Below, in pieces: positions 9,557-63,773 of a DNA stretch of 64,000 nucleotides (positions are counted from its first letter, which is position 1; every line of letters begins with the position of its first letter). The position numbers and the translations under genes were made by a program. Origin of the DNA: Phormidium tenue FACHB-1050 (lineage in GTDB: Bacteria; Cyanobacteriota; Cyanobacteriia; Pseudanabaenales; Pseudanabaenaceae); assembly GCF_014696925.1 (NCBI RefSeq), contig NZ_JACJQY010000023.1, positions 1 through 64,000 of the forward strand, written 5' to 3'. Under the pieces are notes generated by a model. That model saw only the letters and a list, made by a program, of their open reading frames with translations, was not told where the DNA came from and ran no database searches.

Positions 9557-11411
<1,855 letters not shown>

Positions 11412-54060: not shown

Positions 54061-54477
54061 TTAAGTGATTGTGAAAAACTGCTCAACAGTTACTATTGGA
54101 CAGGTAAACCTATCAACAAGACAGAGCAAATCGCGATCGCCTGTTACTAGATAATCAGCATTCCCAACCATTGCCAAAACTAGAAAAGGTTCATCAAAAG
54201 GATCGCGACATTCAGGAATAGTGGGTAATTGTTCTGGCAACAACACCGTGTCGCAAAACGGCAAATAATCCGCTAATAAATCCTCTTGTTCTACCTTTGT
54301 CAATTTGAACTTCGGATAAGAAAGCACCCTGATTAGTTCCGTAATTGTTGCTTTGGAAACCAATGGAATAAGGCGATCGCTCTGCCATGCTAGACGTAAT
54401 CTTGCTGTACTTCCACCAAATACCAACGCTGATAATACTAAATTAGTATCAATTACTACTCTTAGCTGATCGCTCAT
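54061..54477 (-). CDS. PIN-family toxin
   Basis: 138 residues: VVIDTNLVLSALVFGGSTARLRLA with first Asp, ELIRVLSYPKF with Glu, EPFLVLAMVGNADYLVTGDRDLL with later Asp residues. This is the PIN subgroup described as putative TA toxin component. It overlaps the antitoxin stop by four bases (ATGA). Confidence 0.88.
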   Translation of the reverse strand: MSDQLRVVIDTNLVLSALVFGGSTARLRLAWQSDRLIPLVSKATITELIRVLSYPKFKLTKVEQEDLLADYLPFCDTVLLPEQLPTIPECRDPFDEPFLVLAMVGNADYLVTGDRDLLCLVDRFTCPIVTVEQFFTIT

Positions 54478-54695
54478 CCCTTACGCGCCCAAGCTACAGC
54501 ATCCGCAATATCCTGTTCGCTTAAATCCAAAGCAGCAAGCTTAGAACGTACTGCATCAGCACGCTGAATCTTTACAGGCGTAAGAATAATTTGCCCACCT
54601 TCCACCTTCACATCAAAGTATTCTGAGTTTCCAATTGCCTTAGTAATACTTTTAGGAAGAGTAAGCTGATTTTTGGAGGTTAACTTAGCCAGCAT
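54474..54695 (-). CDS. AbrB/MazE-like antitoxin
   Basis: 73 residues: MLAKLTSKNQLTLPKSITKAIG is the swapped-hairpin SpoVT/AbrB DNA-binding fold. The C-terminal LAALDLSEQDIADAVAWAR helix would bind the toxin. It is the promoter-proximal gene of the cassette. Confidence 0.88.
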   Translation of the reverse strand: MLAKLTSKNQLTLPKSITKAIGNSEYFDVKVEGGQIILTPVKIQRADAVRSKLAALDLSEQDIADAVAWARKG

Positions 54696-56131: not shown

Positions 56132-57991
56132 ATGCGGCGACTGATTGGAATTTTTGTAATTGGGATGTTGAGCTTTTTCCTTGCTACTGCAACAGGCGCT
56201 CAAAACTTTGTTCCCCCCACACAACTACATCTCACCTATCCCCCTCTACAACATAAAACCACCAGCGATCGCCTATTTTTTATTGGTACGGCTCCCAAAG
56301 ATGGCAAGGTCAGTATTAATGGCAATGCCATCGAACGTAGTGATGCTGGACATTTTGCCCCAAGTTTGCCGCTTGCTTTTGGAGAAAACAAGTTTGAGAT
56401 CAAGTATGTCGATGCAACAGGCGATCGCCGTAATGAACGCCAGATCAATGTCAAGGTCTTACGAGAGTCCCGTATCACCTTACCTCCTAAGGGTATTGGT
56501 TTTATCCAAGAATCTCTATTTCCCACTGTCGATATTGCGCGACAACCCAATGAAAGAATCTGCTTCGATGCGATCGCCACACCCAACGCCACGGCTCTAG
56601 TCAGAATCGGCGATCGCGAAATTCCCTTATTACCTCGTCGCCGCAATATCCAATTACCGCCGAATTCTTCAGTATTAACAGGCAATAACGAAGCGACTAG
56701 CGAATCGCCTTCAGGATATTTTCGCGGCTGTACTACCTTTGAAACTGCCAGTAAACTCGGTCAACCTGAGTATGAAATGCGGATCAAGGATCAATCTGGC
56801 GATCGCGTGGTCAAGCAAAAAGCTACAGGTAAAGTGGAGATTCTCTCTGCTCAAAATATTCAAGTTGCCGAAGTAACCGCGATCGCGGCGGATGCTAGAA
56901 CTGGTGCAAGTACTGATTTCTCACGACTTACGCCTTTACCTAAAGGAGTCAAAGCTGTAGTCACAGGGCTTCAAGGCGATTGGCTAAGGCTTGACTATGG
57001 TGGCTGGGTACGCAAGAGTATGACAAAGCTCCATCCAGCCGAGACTCCGCCCCCTTCAATTGTGAGAAGCATTAATACTAAACGAGTTGTCAATAAAGCT
57101 AATCAAAAAGACAATCTTAATAATGCATGGACAGAAGTAACAATTCCCCTAGAAGTGCCAGTCCCAATTGCCATTAACCAAGGCGATCGCGTATTGACGC
57201 TGACACTCTATAATGTGACGGCTCAAACTGATACGATTTTGATCGATCCAGAATCGATTATTAATAAGTTAGACTGGGCACAAACTGAACCCAATAAAGT
57301 TACCTATACGATTAGTCTTAAACCCAAGCAGCAATGGGGATATAAAGTTCGCTACCAAGGTACAAACCTGATTTTATCCCTAAAGCATCCACCGATTCTT
57401 ACATCTAATACATCAGTCAATTCTCAACCACTTCAAGGTGTGAAGATTCTGGTTGACGCAGGACATGGAAGCTCTGAAGACTTAGGAGCGCGAGGTCCCA
57501 CAGGCTACCCCGAAAAAGATGTCACACTGATCACATCAAAACTATTCCAAACTGAGCTACAAAATCGTGGTGCTATTGTTATTATGACCCGCACTGATGA
57601 TTCAGATGTTCTTTTAGAACCAAGGGTCGATAAAATTAATCAAGAAGAACCAACTCTAGCGATTAGTATTCATTACAATGCTTTACCTGATAATGGGGAT
57701 GCAATTAATACGTCAGGGGTGGCAAGCTTTTGGTACAATCCACAAGCGCAAGATTTTGCCAAATTTATTAATACCTATGTCGTTAAAAATCTGAATCGGG
57801 CTGATTATGGAGTTTACTGGAACAATCTTGCTCTCGTCCGTCCCACCGTTGCTCCATCCGTCCTTTTGGAATTAGGTTTTATGATCAATCCTGTCGAGTT
57901 TGAATGGATAATCGATCCACAACAGCAAAAGCTACTTGCTAAGACCCTTGCCGATGGCGTTACCGAATGGATTCTGAATGCTGCTAAGTGA
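56132..57991 (+). CDS. N-acetylmuramoyl-L-alanine amidase, exported
   Basis: 619 residues. An N-terminal signal peptide (IGIFVIGMLSFFLATATGA) precedes two beta-rich segments that resemble bacterial SH3 and AMIN-type domains. The C-terminal Amidase_3 domain (about 430-615) has zinc ligands in VDAGHGSSED, a later Glu and His in AISIHYNA, and Glu in LLELGFMINP. It cleaves the amide between MurNAc and the peptide in daughter-cell separation. The gene overlaps the downstream transporter by 14 bases. Confidence 0.92.
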   Translation: MRRLIGIFVIGMLSFFLATATGAQNFVPPTQLHLTYPPLQHKTTSDRLFFIGTAPKDGKVSINGNAIERSDAGHFAPSLPLAFGENKFEIKYVDATGDRRNERQINVKVLRESRITLPPKGIGFIQESLFPTVDIARQPNERICFDAIATPNATALVRIGDREIPLLPRRRNIQLPPNSSVLTGNNEATSESPSGYFRGCTTFETASKLGQPEYEMRIKDQSGDRVVKQKATGKVEILSAQNIQVAEVTAIAADARTGASTDFSRLTPLPKGVKAVVTGLQGDWLRLDYGGWVRKSMTKLHPAETPPPSIVRSINTKRVVNKANQKDNLNNAWTEVTIPLEVPVPIAINQGDRVLTLTLYNVTAQTDTILIDPESIINKLDWAQTEPNKVTYTISLKPKQQWGYKVRYQGTNLILSLKHPPILTSNTSVNSQPLQGVKILVDAGHGSSEDLGARGPTGYPEKDVTLITSKLFQTELQNRGAIVIMTRTDDSDVLLEPRVDKINQEEPTLAISIHYNALPDNGDAINTSGVASFWYNPQAQDFAKFINTYVVKNLNRADYGVYWNNLALVRPTVAPSVLLELGFMINPVEFEWIIDPQQQKLLAKTLADGVTEWILNAAK

Positions 57992-58934
57992 TCCCAACCA
58001 ATTTTGGTCTATCTTCCATTTTGGCGAACTGATCAATGCTTATATCCCACTGATGGTATGGACAGGTGTTGGCTTGCTAGCATCTAGATTTGCACCGATT
58101 AATACCTCCAAATTTATGGGGATAACTCTGTATTGGGTGGGAGTGCCATTGCAACTATTTGTCCTTGCTAGACATACCCAATTTTCGGATACTCCCTACA
58201 TTCCCTATGTGGCGATCGCCACGCTGATTCTCAGTTGGCTATTGGCTTTAGTCGGTTGGCAGTTTGCAAAACAGGAAGATAGCGATCGCTCTAGTTTGGG
58301 TAGCTTTATTTTGGCGACGATGCTGGGCAATACAGGATTTGTGGGCTTGACGCTGACAACTTCTCTGGCTAGTTCTATCTATGCAGATTGGGCAGTACTA
58401 TACAGTATTGCCAGTAATGTCGCTGGTAACTATGGAATTGCAGTTTTTATTGCCAGCTACTTTGGTAAGAGCGATGTGAAGCCACCTTGGTGGAAGTTAT
58501 TGCTGGATGTCGTTACTGTGCCAAGTCTATGGGCTTTTGCGATCGGTTGGTATACGCGCCCGATCGGTTTACCTGATGCGATCGAGTCGAGTCTGGATTT
58601 AGGGGTATGGGTAACGATCGCCTTTGCGTTGTCTCTAGTGGGATTACGATTAGGCAAAATCGAGAAGTGGGACAGCCTGAAACCTGCGGCGATCGCTGCT
58701 TTTTTGCGTGTGGGAATTGTGCCTTTAGCGATCGGGTTGGGAGCGACAATGTTTGGGCTGCGCCATGATCCGCGACTAATTCTTACTTTGATGTCGGGTA
58801 CGCCCACGGGTTTGTCGGTGCTAATTCTTGCGGAAGTTTACAACCTTGATCGCGATTTACTAATTAGCACGATCGCCTTCTCTTTTATCGGACTAATTTT
58901 TATGCTGCCGATCTGGATCGTATTTTTTGGCTAA
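57978..58934 (+). CDS. AEC-family transporter
   Basis: 318 residues, about ten hydrophobic helices. Contains LGNTGFVGLTL and the late MSGTPTGLSVLILAEVYNLD that mark the auxin efflux carrier (AEC) family. The substrate in bacteria is usually an organic anion or malonate-like; not determined here. It starts inside the amidase gene and is co-transcribed. Confidence 0.9.
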   Translation: MLLSDPNQFWSIFHFGELINAYIPLMVWTGVGLLASRFAPINTSKFMGITLYWVGVPLQLFVLARHTQFSDTPYIPYVAIATLILSWLLALVGWQFAKQEDSDRSSLGSFILATMLGNTGFVGLTLTTSLASSIYADWAVLYSIASNVAGNYGIAVFIASYFGKSDVKPPWWKLLLDVVTVPSLWAFAIGWYTRPIGLPDAIESSLDLGVWVTIAFALSLVGLRLGKIEKWDSLKPAAIAAFLRVGIVPLAIGLGATMFGLRHDPRLILTLMSGTPTGLSVLILAEVYNLDRDLLISTIAFSFIGLIFMLPIWIVFFG

Positions 58935-58978
58935 AGAATAATTGCTCAACCTAGAGCACAATCACACATAGGTATTAA

Positions 58979-59119
58979 GAACGGGAGGGAATGCTAATTA
59001 GAGCCAATGATTTGCTGATTGCGGCGCATGGCTTAGCTTTGAATTCAACTGTTATTACGGCAAATGTGTGTGAGTTTTCGCGCGTGCCAAATTTGCTTAT
59101 GGAAAATTGGCTGGTTTAA
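58979..59119 (+). pseudogene. VapC toxin C-terminal remnant
   Basis: Reads EREGMLIRANDLLIAAHGLAL...VITANVCEFSRVPNLLMENWLV to a stop. The NDLLIAAH and T-x-N-x-x-EFSRV segments are the C-terminal half of VapC PIN toxins. The N-terminal half and the antitoxin are missing. It lies between the transporter and the HNH gene. Confidence 0.8.
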
Positions 59120-59177
59120 AATAAACTATACAAGTCGCGATTGGAGATGTTAAAAATCTCTTCACTTTATATCGTTG

Positions 59178-60077
59178 TTAGCCATCAAGTTTAGACAGAA
59201 GATCTTGAAATGTCTCACATCTTCTCTGAAGCCACTCAATTGAGAAACCTTTTTGTCGCAATATGCTCAAATAAGCCGCAGTATATGGTTGACTACCTTT
59301 AAAGACACTAATCAACTCTTCAGAGCATTTGATTATTTCTTGATAAGCCTGCCTTTCTGGGTAGGTTGGATCAGCAATTTTTTTCATTGCTTCATTGAGT
59401 TCTGTAATCATTGTGTTAGTAATTCTGCGTATCTTTTTTCGTTCGTCAACTAACTGATCTCGCTCATTAAGCTTAAAAAGCTTGATACACATCCTTCCCC
59501 GAAGACTTTCATCCACAGCATACATAATCCCAGTATTTGGATCAACAGATAAATGGTGCTCTGGATTATCCTCTTCTAATTCGCTGATTGGATTAATCAG
59601 TAGGGGTTTTTCGTTGGCTTCTTCGTTAGGAACTTGAGCATGTTGTCCAACAACGGGGAAGAGTGTGCTTTTAGGCTGATTACATATTGCACAAGAAGGA
59701 AGGAGATTTCGCCAATCGTAGGCTAACCAGTAATAGCCAAGATGTGGGTTTCCTGTATCAATTCCATTCTCATCCTTGAAATTAATCACTTTGCCCTTCT
59801 CATCTTTAACTCCTGCTTTGGGACGAAAGTGCTCAACTTGAATATATTGAGTGTCGGCAATCGGGCTTTCACAATAGGCACAGCGACCATAAAATGGCGC
59901 GTCTCTACTAACAAAATAGCTCTTTTTAATACTATCCCTCTTGTATAGATTCTCGTTAACTATTGGTTTTTCACCTCTGGCAACTGAATCTATTGCCTTT
60001 TTGGTTTCTTCTTGGCAGTCACGAATCCATTTTTTCCAGATGTCACTATCTGGTTCTTGAACGAATATCTTCCTCAC
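59178..60077 (-). CDS. HNH endonuclease, PtuB/TIGR02646-like
   Basis: 299 residues. CAYCE (66-70) and CAICN (129-133) form the two zinc-binding pairs. VEHFRPK (81-87) carries the catalytic His and a basic run; LAYDWRNLLPSC supplies the Asn. This pattern fits the HNH family found beside retrons and in Septu (PtuB). It starts two bases after the stop of the ATPase gene, so both form an operon. It should cleave DNA when released by the ATPase. Confidence 0.85.
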   Translation of the reverse strand: MRKIFVQEPDSDIWKKWIRDCQEETKKAIDSVARGEKPIVNENLYKRDSIKKSYFVSRDAPFYGRCAYCESPIADTQYIQVEHFRPKAGVKDEKGKVINFKDENGIDTGNPHLGYYWLAYDWRNLLPSCAICNQPKSTLFPVVGQHAQVPNEEANEKPLLINPISELEEDNPEHHLSVDPNTGIMYAVDESLRGRMCIKLFKLNERDQLVDERKKIRRITNTMITELNEAMKKIADPTYPERQAYQEIIKCSEELISVFKGSQPYTAAYLSILRQKGFSIEWLQRRCETFQDLLSKLDG

Positions 60078-60079
60078 CT

Positions 60080-63000
60080 CTAAGCCCCCTGATTAGAAAG
60101 CTGTTGTAAGTGTTTGGTGATCTCTAGCTCTAGCAATTCAGGAGTAATATCGCTTGCTGTTTTCTCAATAGCTGATTCCACTTCTCTCCTGACGAGTCTT
60201 TCTGTAGCATTTTCACCATCTTGAAGGCTTTCTTGCAACTTTTCTCGTAATTCCTGTAATTCGTCGTCTTCTTTTTCTGTTAGATCAGTATGACCAAGTA
60301 GTTCAGAGTAGCGATCAATATCAGTCAAACTACCCTGATTGCGGCTGGTAAATAAACCAAAAGCCTCTGAAGTCAGTACCTGATCAGCGCGTTTGCCATA
60401 TAGTTCTTCTTTGTCGATCAGCTTAGCTTGAACTCCATTCTCAGGGCTACGATCTAGTTTTACTAGAAGACCAGTATCAATATCAGCAACTCCCGAAGCT
60501 GCTAATGGTGTATGTGTGGAGGCAATAATTTGAGTATTAGGGAACATTTCATGCAAACGTTGCACAAAGTAACGCTGCCAGAGAGGATGTAAATGCTGTT
60601 CAATTTCATCAATGAGTAGAATACCGCCAATATTACCGTTTTCCGTTAGTCGATTGGCATGAACTGCCCAGCCAATAAAATCTAGCAACCATTGGCTAGT
60701 GCTGCGATAGCCATCACTGAGGGCGGCAAGGGGCTGTCTACCCCAAGGACCATCGACTTCGATACCGCGATCGCTGTAATGAAACTGATATTCGGCATGG
60801 TCATCAAGCATTAGTACTTTGAGTAATTGTTGCTCGATTTGCTTGCGAACTTCTTCACTGCGTCGCCGTAAAACTACTTCTGGATCTTGGAAAGAGACTT
60901 GGGAGGTAAACAAGGATTGCACAGCGTCAAGAGTGCTATAGCCTTCATGGTTTGTATAAGTTTGGGTAGTACGATTGGCTCCGTAACCACATACAAAAAT
61001 ATCTGACCACAGAAAATCAATTTCTGGCTCAATTTTTTGAGTAAGAGTTTCACTTTTCTCTGACTGCTTCGTAATCGTAGTTGTAATCGTATAAGTGTTT
61101 GTTTGGTTATTTGAGTCTAGATTTTGCAAGGATCGATTATCTGGACTTTGTTGACGGGCGATCGCTATTAACTCGTCAAGCTTGTCCTCAGTATTTGCTC
61201 GCTCAATCATTTCAACGATCTGTTCAGAAAGACTAGGATATGGTGAGGGTTGACCTAATTCTTCTGGTAAAGCATTTTTGAGAGCTTTAAGTTTAGAGAT
61301 AGTTGGAAAGGCGCTTAGTAATGCTCGGTGTATTTGTTGCGATCTTAAAAGTGGTATTTGTGATGCATCTTTGTTACACAACACTATCTTGATATAGCCT
61401 TCATCTGCTCCATCTCTTACCAAATCTCCAGAAAGAAATGACTTTAAAGCAGCCGCATCACTTTGATCGCATAGTCCGAGGGCAATGCTTCTAAGCAAAG
61501 TAGTTTTGCCTGCGGCATTTTCACCTAAAATCATAAACCAATCGGAAAGTTTATCACCTTCAGTAAAGCTTATTTTCAAACCCTCAAAACATCTAATGTT
61601 TTCAATTTCAATTTCTGCAATAACTAAGTTTCTCCAAGAATACTCTGGCTTATCATTTCCTAAAGTTTTTGATGTTGGCAACACAATATCTTCTAATTCA
61701 CGAATAGCTTTTTTAAATTTATCTATTCGTGTAATTATAGGATGCGGAAAGAACCAATCTCTTTTGTTATCACGATATTGTAAAAGTAAACCTATTTTTA
61801 AAGCTATAAATCCATTGTTACCTTCTGGTAGAGATTTATTATAGAATGATTTAGCAAGGTCTTGACAAAATTTCTCCGATATACTGTCAACTCCAAAATA
61901 AATTTGCAGTTGTTCGATTGCATAACTAACGTCTAACGCATTAATTTTTTTTCTACTTCTTCCAATTGCAGATAGACAAGCTTGACGTGTCAACATCATT
62001 AAATGAGTTAAATTACCTCCACTAGATAGAATTAGATTATATATAAATTGCTGTGAATCAAACAAAGCATCAATATTAATTCGTTGGCTTAAGACATCAG
62101 TAAACTTTTTGATTGACAATTCATTTATCTCTAGATCAACTTGTAAATCATTGAATTTATAAATATTTGATAGTGGGACAAGAAAAGATTTTTGATAATT
62201 TCTATTCAGCATTTGCAAATGAGTTAGATAGTAAATAGGTGCAGTATAGATTACATTACAATTAAGCTCAAAAAGCTTACTCACCTCATCCTTAAAGAGA
62301 AATTTACTATCTTCTATATGGCAACGATCCAGATTGTCAAATATAAAAAGAATTCCTTTACAAGTGTTTTGTGAGTCCTGAATTAACTGATTTATGTTTT
62401 TTAAAAATAATTCAAACAAGCACTTAAATTCTTTTTCATGATTGATAAATGACCCTCTACATGTTGGATCATTGTAATATTTACCGTTCCTAAAAGAACG
62501 TATAAATCTATCAACAGTTCCAACCTTGTTTATTTCAAGTAAAAGCCCCATTAAAATCAATGAAAAATCTGTTGATAAGTTTATATCTTTGAGATTTCTA
62601 TCTTGTGCTATAGATTTTATCAATAAGATTTTTTCATCAGTCGCTAATTTGTTCAACGATGGCTCTACAGTAAGATCAACAATCTTGACAAGTGTAGATT
62701 CAAATTCTTTAATAATACTCTCATCAATATTGATTTCATGCTTGTGCAAGTGATCATTCAAATAAAACAAGGCAAGTAAATAAATATCAATATAATCAAT
62801 ATTGTTAATATTTAATATATTGTCAAATTCAATATAAATTACATGATAGTCAGTACACCAATTTTTAATCAGCAAATTTAATTGCGTAGTCTTGCCACAA
62901 CCACGATGCCCCGCCAGAAAAAAAGTCTTGTGTTCTCCCAATTCCTGCACAAATAGAGAAGCCCCGATCGCTTTTACTGCATCAAAATCATCTTCATCCA

Positions 63001-63109
63001 ATAGAGGCTCATAATATTTTTCAAAATCTTCTCCGCTTAAAGGCTTTGGCTCACACACACGGTAAGCTTCGCGCAAATCAGTTGCAGGTTGTGATGGAGA
63101 AGATGACAT
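60080..63109 (-). CDS. Septu-like ATPase with an added N-terminal P-loop domain
   Basis: 1009 residues with two NTPase modules. The N-terminal one (about 30-410) has Walker A GHRGCGKTT at 67-75 and a Walker B-like FIFDNLD near 256-262, then a helical region, resembling STAND/KAP-type ATPases. The C-terminal one (about 495-880) is an SMC/ABC-type AAA domain: Walker A GENAAGKTT (529-537), signature LSDGYRS (797-803), Walker B LLIDEIEQHLH (831-841) and H-loop STHTP. That half matches PtuA of Septu defence. Bases 61700-62870, encoding the N-terminal module, are much richer in A/T than the rest, suggesting a chimera. Confidence 0.85.
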   Translation of the reverse strand: MSSSPSQPATDLREAYRVCEPKPLSGEDFEKYYEPLLDEDDFDAVKAIGASLFVQELGEHKTFFLAGHRGCGKTTQLNLLIKNWCTDYHVIYIEFDNILNINNIDYIDIYLLALFYLNDHLHKHEINIDESIIKEFESTLVKIVDLTVEPSLNKLATDEKILLIKSIAQDRNLKDINLSTDFSLILMGLLLEINKVGTVDRFIRSFRNGKYYNDPTCRGSFINHEKEFKCLFELFLKNINQLIQDSQNTCKGILFIFDNLDRCHIEDSKFLFKDEVSKLFELNCNVIYTAPIYYLTHLQMLNRNYQKSFLVPLSNIYKFNDLQVDLEINELSIKKFTDVLSQRINIDALFDSQQFIYNLILSSGGNLTHLMMLTRQACLSAIGRSRKKINALDVSYAIEQLQIYFGVDSISEKFCQDLAKSFYNKSLPEGNNGFIALKIGLLLQYRDNKRDWFFPHPIITRIDKFKKAIRELEDIVLPTSKTLGNDKPEYSWRNLVIAEIEIENIRCFEGLKISFTEGDKLSDWFMILGENAAGKTTLLRSIALGLCDQSDAAALKSFLSGDLVRDGADEGYIKIVLCNKDASQIPLLRSQQIHRALLSAFPTISKLKALKNALPEELGQPSPYPSLSEQIVEMIERANTEDKLDELIAIARQQSPDNRSLQNLDSNNQTNTYTITTTITKQSEKSETLTQKIEPEIDFLWSDIFVCGYGANRTTQTYTNHEGYSTLDAVQSLFTSQVSFQDPEVVLRRRSEEVRKQIEQQLLKVLMLDDHAEYQFHYSDRGIEVDGPWGRQPLAALSDGYRSTSQWLLDFIGWAVHANRLTENGNIGGILLIDEIEQHLHPLWQRYFVQRLHEMFPNTQIIASTHTPLAASGVADIDTGLLVKLDRSPENGVQAKLIDKEELYGKRADQVLTSEAFGLFTSRNQGSLTDIDRYSELLGHTDLTEKEDDELQELREKLQESLQDGENATERLVRREVESAIEKTASDITPELLELEITKHLQQLSNQGA

Positions 63110-63189
63110 AGCTTTACTTGTTTAGATCTAAATTTTGGCGATTAAACCTATTGTAAAGTTTTTGGCTAACAATTACACAGCCAAAAGAT

Positions 63190-63533
63190 TTGACGGCATT
63201 TATAATAACACTCTCGACAGCAAATCAACTTTACACAGACTGCTGTTCAGACCACCAATATAGATCTGGCTAAGCTGATCCAAAACAAGATTATCAACGC
63301 GATTGCGAAGATAGGAGATCTGACTCCTGCTGTCTCTAGATGGGGGTATCGTTATCGATGATTTTCTCAGTCAGACAGGAAAAGAAACTTTTAGAGGTAA
63401 AAACTATATCTTGCAAAGGAATGAAGATGGCGATATCGCTAACGATCTAGGGGGAAATGTTCTAAGTACTTACAAAGGACAAGTTACTCATCATCCCCAG
63501 AAATTGAAGACAAAATATTCAAAATTTCGATAG
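63190..63533 (+). pseudogene. Degenerate unidentified gene
   Basis: Sequence shows coding-like pieces in different frames: QINFTQTAVQTTNIDLAKL... then a shift to SLDGGIVIDDFLSQTGKETFRGKNYILQRNEDGD... ending at a TAG at 63531-63533. No start codon and no family recognised; the second part looks like a small beta-rich domain. Frameshifts make this a relic. Bases 63534-63738 show no feature. Confidence 0.35.
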
Positions 63534-63738
63534 AGCTAATGTCCTCTCATACGCAATATGCTCATTAAAATAAAAACGCCGACATTTCCCCTAATAACCT
63601 AGACCTGTAAAGACACAGATCCCCAACTTAATTCTAAGCAAGCAAAGACAATTAGCAAACTCACCAAAAAAGTCGGGGACTTAACCTGTGCTTTTTAAGT
63701 TATCTTGCGCCTAGGCACTTAACTTTTTCTGGTTTATC

Positions 63739-63773
63739 TTGCTATATGATCGATGATGTCAGTCATATAGCAA
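63739..63773. promoter_or_regulatory. Hairpin just upstream of purS
   Basis: Eleven-base perfect arms TTGCTATATGA/TCATATAGCAA with a 13-base loop, ending about 35 bases before the purS start (2 bases before the earlier in-frame ATG at 63776). Placement suggests a leader or operator role; no known riboswitch was recognised. Confidence 0.4.

Follow-up and report, generated by a model that had tools for sequence, protein, structure and literature searches.

In Septu, PtuA is an ABC-type ATPase with no further domain and is encoded next to a PtuB-type HNH nuclease. Characterized PtuAB cleaves tRNA-Tyr or DNA and acts by abortive infection (PMC11555353, PMC13096335), and a precedent for its placement under a foreign controller exists in the type I-A retrons, where control is exerted by a reverse transcriptase (RT) and its multicopy single-stranded DNA (msDNA) (PMC11555353). 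Here we analyze a stretch of 64,000 nucleotides from the filamentous cyanobacterium Phormidium tenue FACHB-1050 (the window; the first 64 kb of contig C16 in a genome of 5.6 Mb), in which a two-gene operon encodes a PtuA-like ATPase with an additional N-terminal AAA+ module and a PtuB-like HNH nuclease. The mechanism by which Septu senses infection is, to our knowledge, not settled, and a natural fusion that joins PtuA in cis to a rapidly changing switch ATPase offers a handle on this question.

Sequence comparison indicates that the architecture is real, recurrent, and rare. The fusion, full or split, is present in 3 of the 26 Pseudanabaena genomes: the source genome (treated here as a member of the genus, to which its nearest named relatives belong), Pseudanabaena cinerea FACHB-1277, and the metagenome-assembled genome CAN_BIN31 (G310). 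Because the AAA+ module and an effector-associated domain (EAD1) are additions to an otherwise recognizable PtuAB pair, the locus is best described as a new variant of Septu and not as a new category. Our favored reading, which we hold to be reasonably probable, is that it encodes a Septu-type nuclease system in which PtuA has been put under a fused STAND/KAP-type AAA+ switch, i.e. a gated Septu.

Domain Architecture of the Fused ATPase and Its HNH Partner

Two minus-strand genes lie between a Mem_trans gene (57978-58934) and purS (63746 onward). An earlier note, made from the letters of this DNA, had described them as a Septu-like operon whose 1009-residue ATPase carries a second, N-terminal P-loop module and adjoins an HNH gene. 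The open reading frames (ORFs) are as it claimed, all five of its motifs are present, and by Pfam and PADLOC the N-terminal part is assigned to AAA_14/KAP and the C-terminal part to PtuA. The stop codon of the ATPase gene is separated from the GTG start of the HNH gene by 2 bases, a spacing that is identical in P. cinerea. The features are as follows.

60080..63109, minus strand: fused ATPase, 1009 residues (STAND/KAP-type AAA+ module plus PtuA-like ABC ATPase with EAD1 insert), from the ORF, Pfam, and PADLOC; full-length relative in P. cinerea 71-72% identical
61670..63109, minus strand: N-terminal AAA+ module, residues 1-480 (KAP_NTPase/AAA_14, stand-alone homologues, AlphaFold2 model)
62885..62911, minus strand: first Walker A, GHRGCGKTT, residues 67-75 (G67, H68, G70, G72, K73, and T75 invariant among 26 homologues)
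62324..62338, minus strand: Walker B of the N-module, DNLDR, residues 258-262 (invariant among 26 homologues)
60083..61621, minus strand: PtuA-like ABC/SMC-type ATPase half, residues 497-1009 (best PADLOC PtuA profile 4.5e-67; PtuA in the PDB, 8ee4, 8e-18; Foldseek matches to PtuA/retron I-A)
61499..61525, minus strand: second Walker A, GENAAGKTT, residues 529-537 (G39, N41, G44, and K45 invariant in alignment A1)
60701..60721, minus strand: ABC signature, LSDGYRS (sequence, alignment A1)
60587..60619, minus strand: Walker B/D-loop, LLIDEIEQHLH (sequence, alignment A1)
60506..60520, minus strand: switch histidine motif, STHTP (sequence, alignment A1)
59178..60077, minus strand: PtuB-like HNH nuclease, 299 residues, GTG start (PADLOC PtuB profile 1.9e-42; catalytic and zinc residues invariant)

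The C-terminal half is a PtuA-type ABC ATPase with Walker A, signature, Walker B, and switch histidine in place. A PDB sequence search with this half returned the E. coli PtuA of entry 8ee4 and the PtuA chains of retron I-A, and the top structural matches of its AlphaFold model (pLDDT 63.6) were all PtuA. The N- and PtuA halves were folded separately; a joint alignment of full-length and half-length proteins (A2) was set aside because it aligned the rows of plain PtuA with the N-half. In the adjacent PtuB-type HNH protein the catalytic and zinc residues are intact, C66, C69, E82, H83, N124, and C129 being invariant among 15 homologues. This protein scores below the NCBIfam cut-offs, but those are set for the PtuB of retron Ec78, and a PDB sequence search with it gave zero matches. 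No reverse transcriptase was found among the ORFs from Mem_trans to purS, so that the arrangement of a type I-A retron (RT and msr-msd beside PtuAB) is not the one seen here. Plain pairs of a PtuA-like protein (465-500 residues) and an HNH protein (~261 residues), with no N-terminal module, occur in at least 10 of the 26 Pseudanabaena genomes. The N-module is thus not a usual part of PtuA, in keeping with the earlier note.

Residues 1-480 match the Pfam families KAP_NTPase and AAA_14 weakly, yet above the cut-off, and the AlphaFold2 model of this module (pLDDT 80, pTM 0.80) is nearest to ORC/Cdc6 (Z 16.0, root mean square deviation 3.1 Å over 246 residues), followed by TnsC (Z 14.9) and CED-4 (Z 12.7). 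ORC/Cdc6, TnsC, and the STAND protein CED-4 are all nucleotide-switched oligomers; a common fold, here a modeled one, by itself demonstrates no function. The module has the P-loop, the DNLDR Walker B, an AAA+ lid with a GG motif, and a winged-helix-like region that mark STAND/KAP-type NTPases, the fold being taken from the model. Pfam finds no repeat family anywhere in the fused protein, such as the C-terminal superstructure-forming repeats of STAND proteins.

Relatives of the N-terminal part were found in 18 of 292 cyanobacterial genomes, the present one included, mostly as stand-alone proteins of ~450 residues with 30-32% identity. These relatives score 24-30 bits against NCBIfam NF047389 ("P-loop ATPase Sll1717", cut-off 75 bits), and the fused protein has no match to it up to an E value of 1. 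The module is thus distant kin of the Sll1717-family ATPases and, as judged from these homologues, already exists as a stand-alone cyanobacterial NTPase family: the addition to PtuA that the earlier note had proposed stands, the novelty of the module itself does not.

At the Pseudanabaena and related loci, 16 of which were inspected with Pfam or BLAST, the stand-alone gene overlaps or abuts a gene for a TPR protein. This two-gene unit recurs in many cyanobacteria (L041-L059, e.g. L043:5659-8509), with a KAP/Sll1717-like ATPase of ~450 residues and an overlapping or abutting gene for a partner made of a conserved 200-residue N-terminal domain and TPRs; it has no clear match in PADLOC and is possibly a conflict system in its own right. 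On plasmids, members that are more distant are followed by an nSTAND1-WD40 protein with TIR and NB-ARC genes close by (Acaryochloris) or by a WD40-type protein (Nostoc UHCC 0302, Calothrix), and on the Nostoc C057 plasmid a relative is fused behind a SAV_2336 domain and adjoins MoxR. These settings are contexts of NTP-dependent conflict systems (PMC7159879). In the genome G302, a stand-alone gene (L098:6430-6640) is 82% identical in DNA to the fused gene along 80 bases that span the start codon; close to its 5' end it appears to be frame-shifted.

Accelerated Change in the Center of the N-terminal Module

Among the fused proteins, residues 101-505 diverge 3-9 times more than the first 100 residues.

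61595..62809, minus strand: residues 101-505, the fast-evolving and A/T-rich center of the N-module plus linker, from identity, dN/dS, and composition

Between the window and P. cinerea the identity is 94% in residues 1-100, 45% in residues 101-505, and 93% in residues 506-850, and the ratio of nonsynonymous to synonymous change (dN/dS) is 0.34 in the center, whereas the two conserved blocks have 0.07 and 0.09. The other two fused pairs behave alike, with 0.32 and 0.36 in the center and 0.06 and 0.05 in the conserved blocks. For the pair of the window and CAN_BIN31, dS is similar in flank (1.36) and center (1.14) and dN in the center is fourfold higher, so that the center is faster in amino acids and not merely older. 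The ratio of central to N-terminal divergence is 9.2, 3.4, and 5.3 in the three fused pairs; in stand-alone relatives its median is 0.88 (range 0.43-2.22, 239 non-independent pairs). Because the stand-alone relatives lack such a pattern, the acceleration goes with the fusion. The selection analysis rests on three alleles, too few for a site test.

The earlier note had overlooked both this acceleration and the EAD1 domain described below; it had read the A/T-rich stretch as the extent of the added module. The stretch is real, with a GC content of 27-31% against 42% for the window. It begins past the Walker A region, however, after residue 95, and coincides with the fast-evolving part; because residues 1-95 have 40% GC, it is not the boundary of the module. 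That the tract is a recently acquired whole module was rejected on the same grounds, the tract being just as A/T-rich in each of the three species and the composition of residues 1-95 being normal. A recombination swap was likewise rejected as the sole cause of the central divergence, since similar dS and fourfold dN in the window-CAN_BIN31 pair require faster amino acid change as well. Recombination is nevertheless visible. Across residues 506-850 the close pair is the window and P. cinerea (dS 0.38), and in the HNH gene it is P. cinerea and CAN_BIN31 (dS 0.46, compared with 1.4-1.5 in the other pairs). By these distances the operons are mosaics.

An EAD1 Domain within the PtuA Half

61118..61339, minus strand: EAD1 (effector-associated domain 1, PF19955), residues 591-664, inside the PtuA half (29.9 bits, cut-off 24.2; genome search 2.0e-7)

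EAD1 is situated after the Walker A and before the remainder of the PtuA ATPase, and the call is backed by alignment to two clear EAD1 domains from the same genome. The P. cinerea fused protein also carries it (Pfam; 91% identity), and the segment is missing from the aligned plain PtuA relatives, so that only the fused form has EAD1. EADs are thought to couple proteins via homotypic contact (PMC7159879). The HNH protein has no EAD1 by Pfam, and the second copy in an adjacent gene that typifies EAD-coupled ternary systems is thus absent here.

The genome's only other EAD1 proteins are two at contig C48 (G000:C48, L060:2915-9744), where a canonical VMAP ternary system comprises EAD1-trypsin, EAD1-VMAP-C, a MoxR-type ATPase, and a SAV_2336-FGE protein. 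The P. cinerea genome (99% complete) has no EAD1 protein over the cut-off apart from the fused ATPase, and in its VMAP system the trypsin fusion is a direct one that lacks EAD1. P. cinerea thereby disfavors the view that EAD1 serves mainly in recruitment to the VMAP system. Because this species retains EAD1 while its VMAP system has none, the data suggest self-association within the PtuA assembly as the simpler reading.

Distribution and Mobility of the Operon

The earlier note had asked whether the fusion recurs by HNH genes in other genomes, and it does, in the two further Pseudanabaena named above. The ORF is uninterrupted over 1009 codons in the window and 1020 codons in P. cinerea. The fusion was not found in the rest of the 390 genomes of the class, no fused relative occurs among viral contigs and phage records, and plasmids yielded PtuA-half relatives and distant N-module relatives only. 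A scan of the contigs of 84,980 species relied on short peptide patterns and for that reason says no more than that close relatives do not occur outside Pseudanabaena; the deep search covered cyanobacteria.

The three copies are at different sites: between Mem_trans and purS in the window, at the end of recQ in P. cinerea, and elsewhere in CAN_BIN31. The window and P. cinerea share DNA homology across 59171-63210, i.e. the operon and ~100 bases upstream, and this homology ends at both edges. Mem_trans and purS are adjacent in one relative (G193), the site being empty there; they are ~1 kb apart in a second (G302), and in a third (G306) a gap of ~6.7 kb holds RelE-like and YhcG-nuclease genes (DUF1016/PDDEXK). 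Since three different sites are occupied, one relative's site is empty, and another holds other defense-type cargo, the operon behaves as mobile cargo. It does not occupy a conserved housekeeping position, a counter-possibility raised in the earlier note.

A 168-nucleotide direct repeat of the recQ 3' end, 98% identical (L034:5709-5876 and 9957-10124), flanks the operon in P. cinerea, and its second copy reaches the contig end; the repeat may point to an insertion that duplicated its target, or to a circular intermediate. The gap between Mem_trans and purS (window 58935-63745; L100, L101, L102, L105) is a variable site in Pseudanabaena, and the same RelE/YhcG cargo also stands beside purS in another genome. 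Two features mark the edges of the operon in the window.

63110..63210, minus strand: presumed promoter stretch of ~100 bases that moves with the operon, from the extent of DNA homology to P. cinerea
59000..59119, plus strand: C-terminal VapC relic bordering the operon on its 3' side; along 38 residues it has 79% identity to an intact ORF of 139 residues elsewhere in the same genome

The relic had been spotted in the earlier note. An intact pair of a PIN_3 toxin and a MazE-like antitoxin is found at window positions 54061-54695, ~4.5 kb off the operon, and the intergenic stretch between operon and purS (63240-63570) resembles, by eye, a broken coding sequence (older gene debris).

Discussion

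The domain content, the intact ATPase and HNH motifs, the operon structure, the mobility, and the accelerated change in the switch module can be read from sequences or models; the sensor role of the module and the defense role of the operon are what we infer. In a gated Septu, the N-module would at rest be closed and nucleotide-bound, and its fast-evolving part would recognize an infection cue. Recognition would drive nucleotide-dependent oligomerization, aided by EAD1 contacts between subunits, and the oligomer would arrange the PtuA cores such that PtuAB assembles and the HNH subunit is activated. The activated nuclease would then cleave nucleic acid, either tRNA or DNA by analogy with characterized PtuAB, halting phage growth or the cell. 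A bolder version, to which we give limited credence, would make this a "resistosome" Septu, a distinct defense class. PtuAB would there be gated directly by an apoptosome-like AAA+/STAND module whose recognition region diversifies rapidly, with EAD1, an adaptor domain of bacterial cell-death systems, serving assembly; the sensor alleles would diversify and the effector stay constant.

A gated Septu is supported by the matches to PtuA and PtuB, the invariant catalytic residues, the oligomeric nature of the structural neighbors of the N-module, the conflict-type settings of its relatives, the acceleration confined to the fused form, the differing sites and cargo, and the retention of EAD1 in P. 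cinerea. Several observations weigh against it. Since dN/dS is below 1 throughout, the excess change could stem from relaxed constraint and not from selection for new recognition. Typical STAND sensors have a fused target-binding repeat domain, which this protein lacks. The model of the PtuA half is of middling confidence (pLDDT 64, with 40-55 in the EAD1 region), and the CAN_BIN31 copy is spread over two contigs, broken off at their ends, and contains an in-frame stop. This stop is a TAA just before an ORF restart (L115:1-112), and the copy may be decaying or misassembled.

A rather doubtful account, to our mind, would have the N-module serve as an ATP-dependent oligomerization or DNA-loading platform and not as a sensor, the PtuA core reading the trigger as in ordinary Septu and the change in residues 101-505 reflecting relaxed constraint. 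The nearest structural neighbors are indeed DNA-bound AAA+ loaders (ORC/Cdc6, TnsC), dN/dS fits, and plain PtuA functions without the module; but Walker A, DNLDR, and the other motifs are kept in all three copies, which is unexpected for a decaying module, and the stand-alone relatives do not share the acceleration. It is also conceivable, and in our estimate unlikely, that the PtuAB pair is an auxiliary effector of the VMAP/MoxR ternary system on contig C48, engaged via EAD1-EAD1 contact with the N-module as a mere co-regulator. According to one proposal, EADs bring in effectors whose genes lie at other places in the genome (PMC7159879), and this genome does hold a canonical VMAP locus with two more EAD1 proteins. 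In P. cinerea, however, EAD1 is kept at 91% identity with no other EAD1 protein over the cut-off, and the trypsin of its VMAP protein comes without EAD1.

The operon is mobile and sporadic, has toxin-antitoxin debris at its flank, and occupies a site that elsewhere holds RelE-like and YhcG genes, and the PtuAB of Eco7 and Eco4 halts growth when expressed alone (PMC11555353). These points would suit an addiction module or one for competition between mobile genetic elements, in which a toxin-like PtuAB is checked by the N-module mainly for self-persistence. We think this improbable: there is no separate antitoxin gene, and the context is not decisive because defense islands and addiction modules share neighbors. 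That the fusion is an assembly or annotation artifact is scarcely credible; only three copies are known and one is split over contigs, yet the independent, uninterrupted ORF in P. cinerea contradicts it and the third genome holds both ends.

A gated Septu would support the view that defense effectors plug into interchangeable controllers, as retrons do with PtuAB, and suggests that defense systems may exchange sensors while the weapon is kept. The EAD1 and the KAP/STAND module would in addition tie Septu to the cell-death-like ternary systems of multicellular bacteria.

Comparison with Known Systems

The locus resembles Septu (PDB 8ee4, 8eea) in its ABC/SMC-type ATPase half, its HNH partner directly downstream, and its intact motifs, and differs by the 480-residue N-terminal AAA+ module and EAD1, neither of which is found in the plain Pseudanabaena PtuA of ~465-500 residues. 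With the type I-A retrons (Ec78/Eco7, Ec83/Eco4) it shares a PtuAB effector under a non-Septu controller, which there is RT-msDNA and here an ATPase fused in cis, with RT absent between the flanking genes. The ptuXYZ operons (PMC11980606) also build a PtuA-like ATPase into another defense operon, but their effectors are DUF262 and PIN-YoeB and no AAA+ fusion is described. An N-terminal extension of PtuA is seen in HNH-PtuA fusions (e.g. Priestia plasmid L106; PADLOC PDLC00292), where it is a second HNH-like domain and not an NTPase; on the Priestia plasmid (L106:3140-6081) the PtuA with the HNH-like N-terminal domain adjoins a separate HNH gene, and a retron reverse transcriptase gene lies on the opposite strand.

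The remaining kinships concern the added parts. VMAP/MoxR ternary systems (PMC7159879) have EAD1 in common with the fused protein, and the Nostoc relative of the N-module is fused to SAV_2336 beside MoxR, whereas the window locus has no VMAP, vWA, or MoxR gene, its EAD1 is internal instead of terminal, and the adjacent gene lacks EAD1. The stand-alone Sll1717 family/KAP NTPases of cyanobacteria (~450 residues, 30-32% identity) are homologous to the N-module; they sit by TPR or WD40 genes, and the fusion to PtuA is the only case found here.

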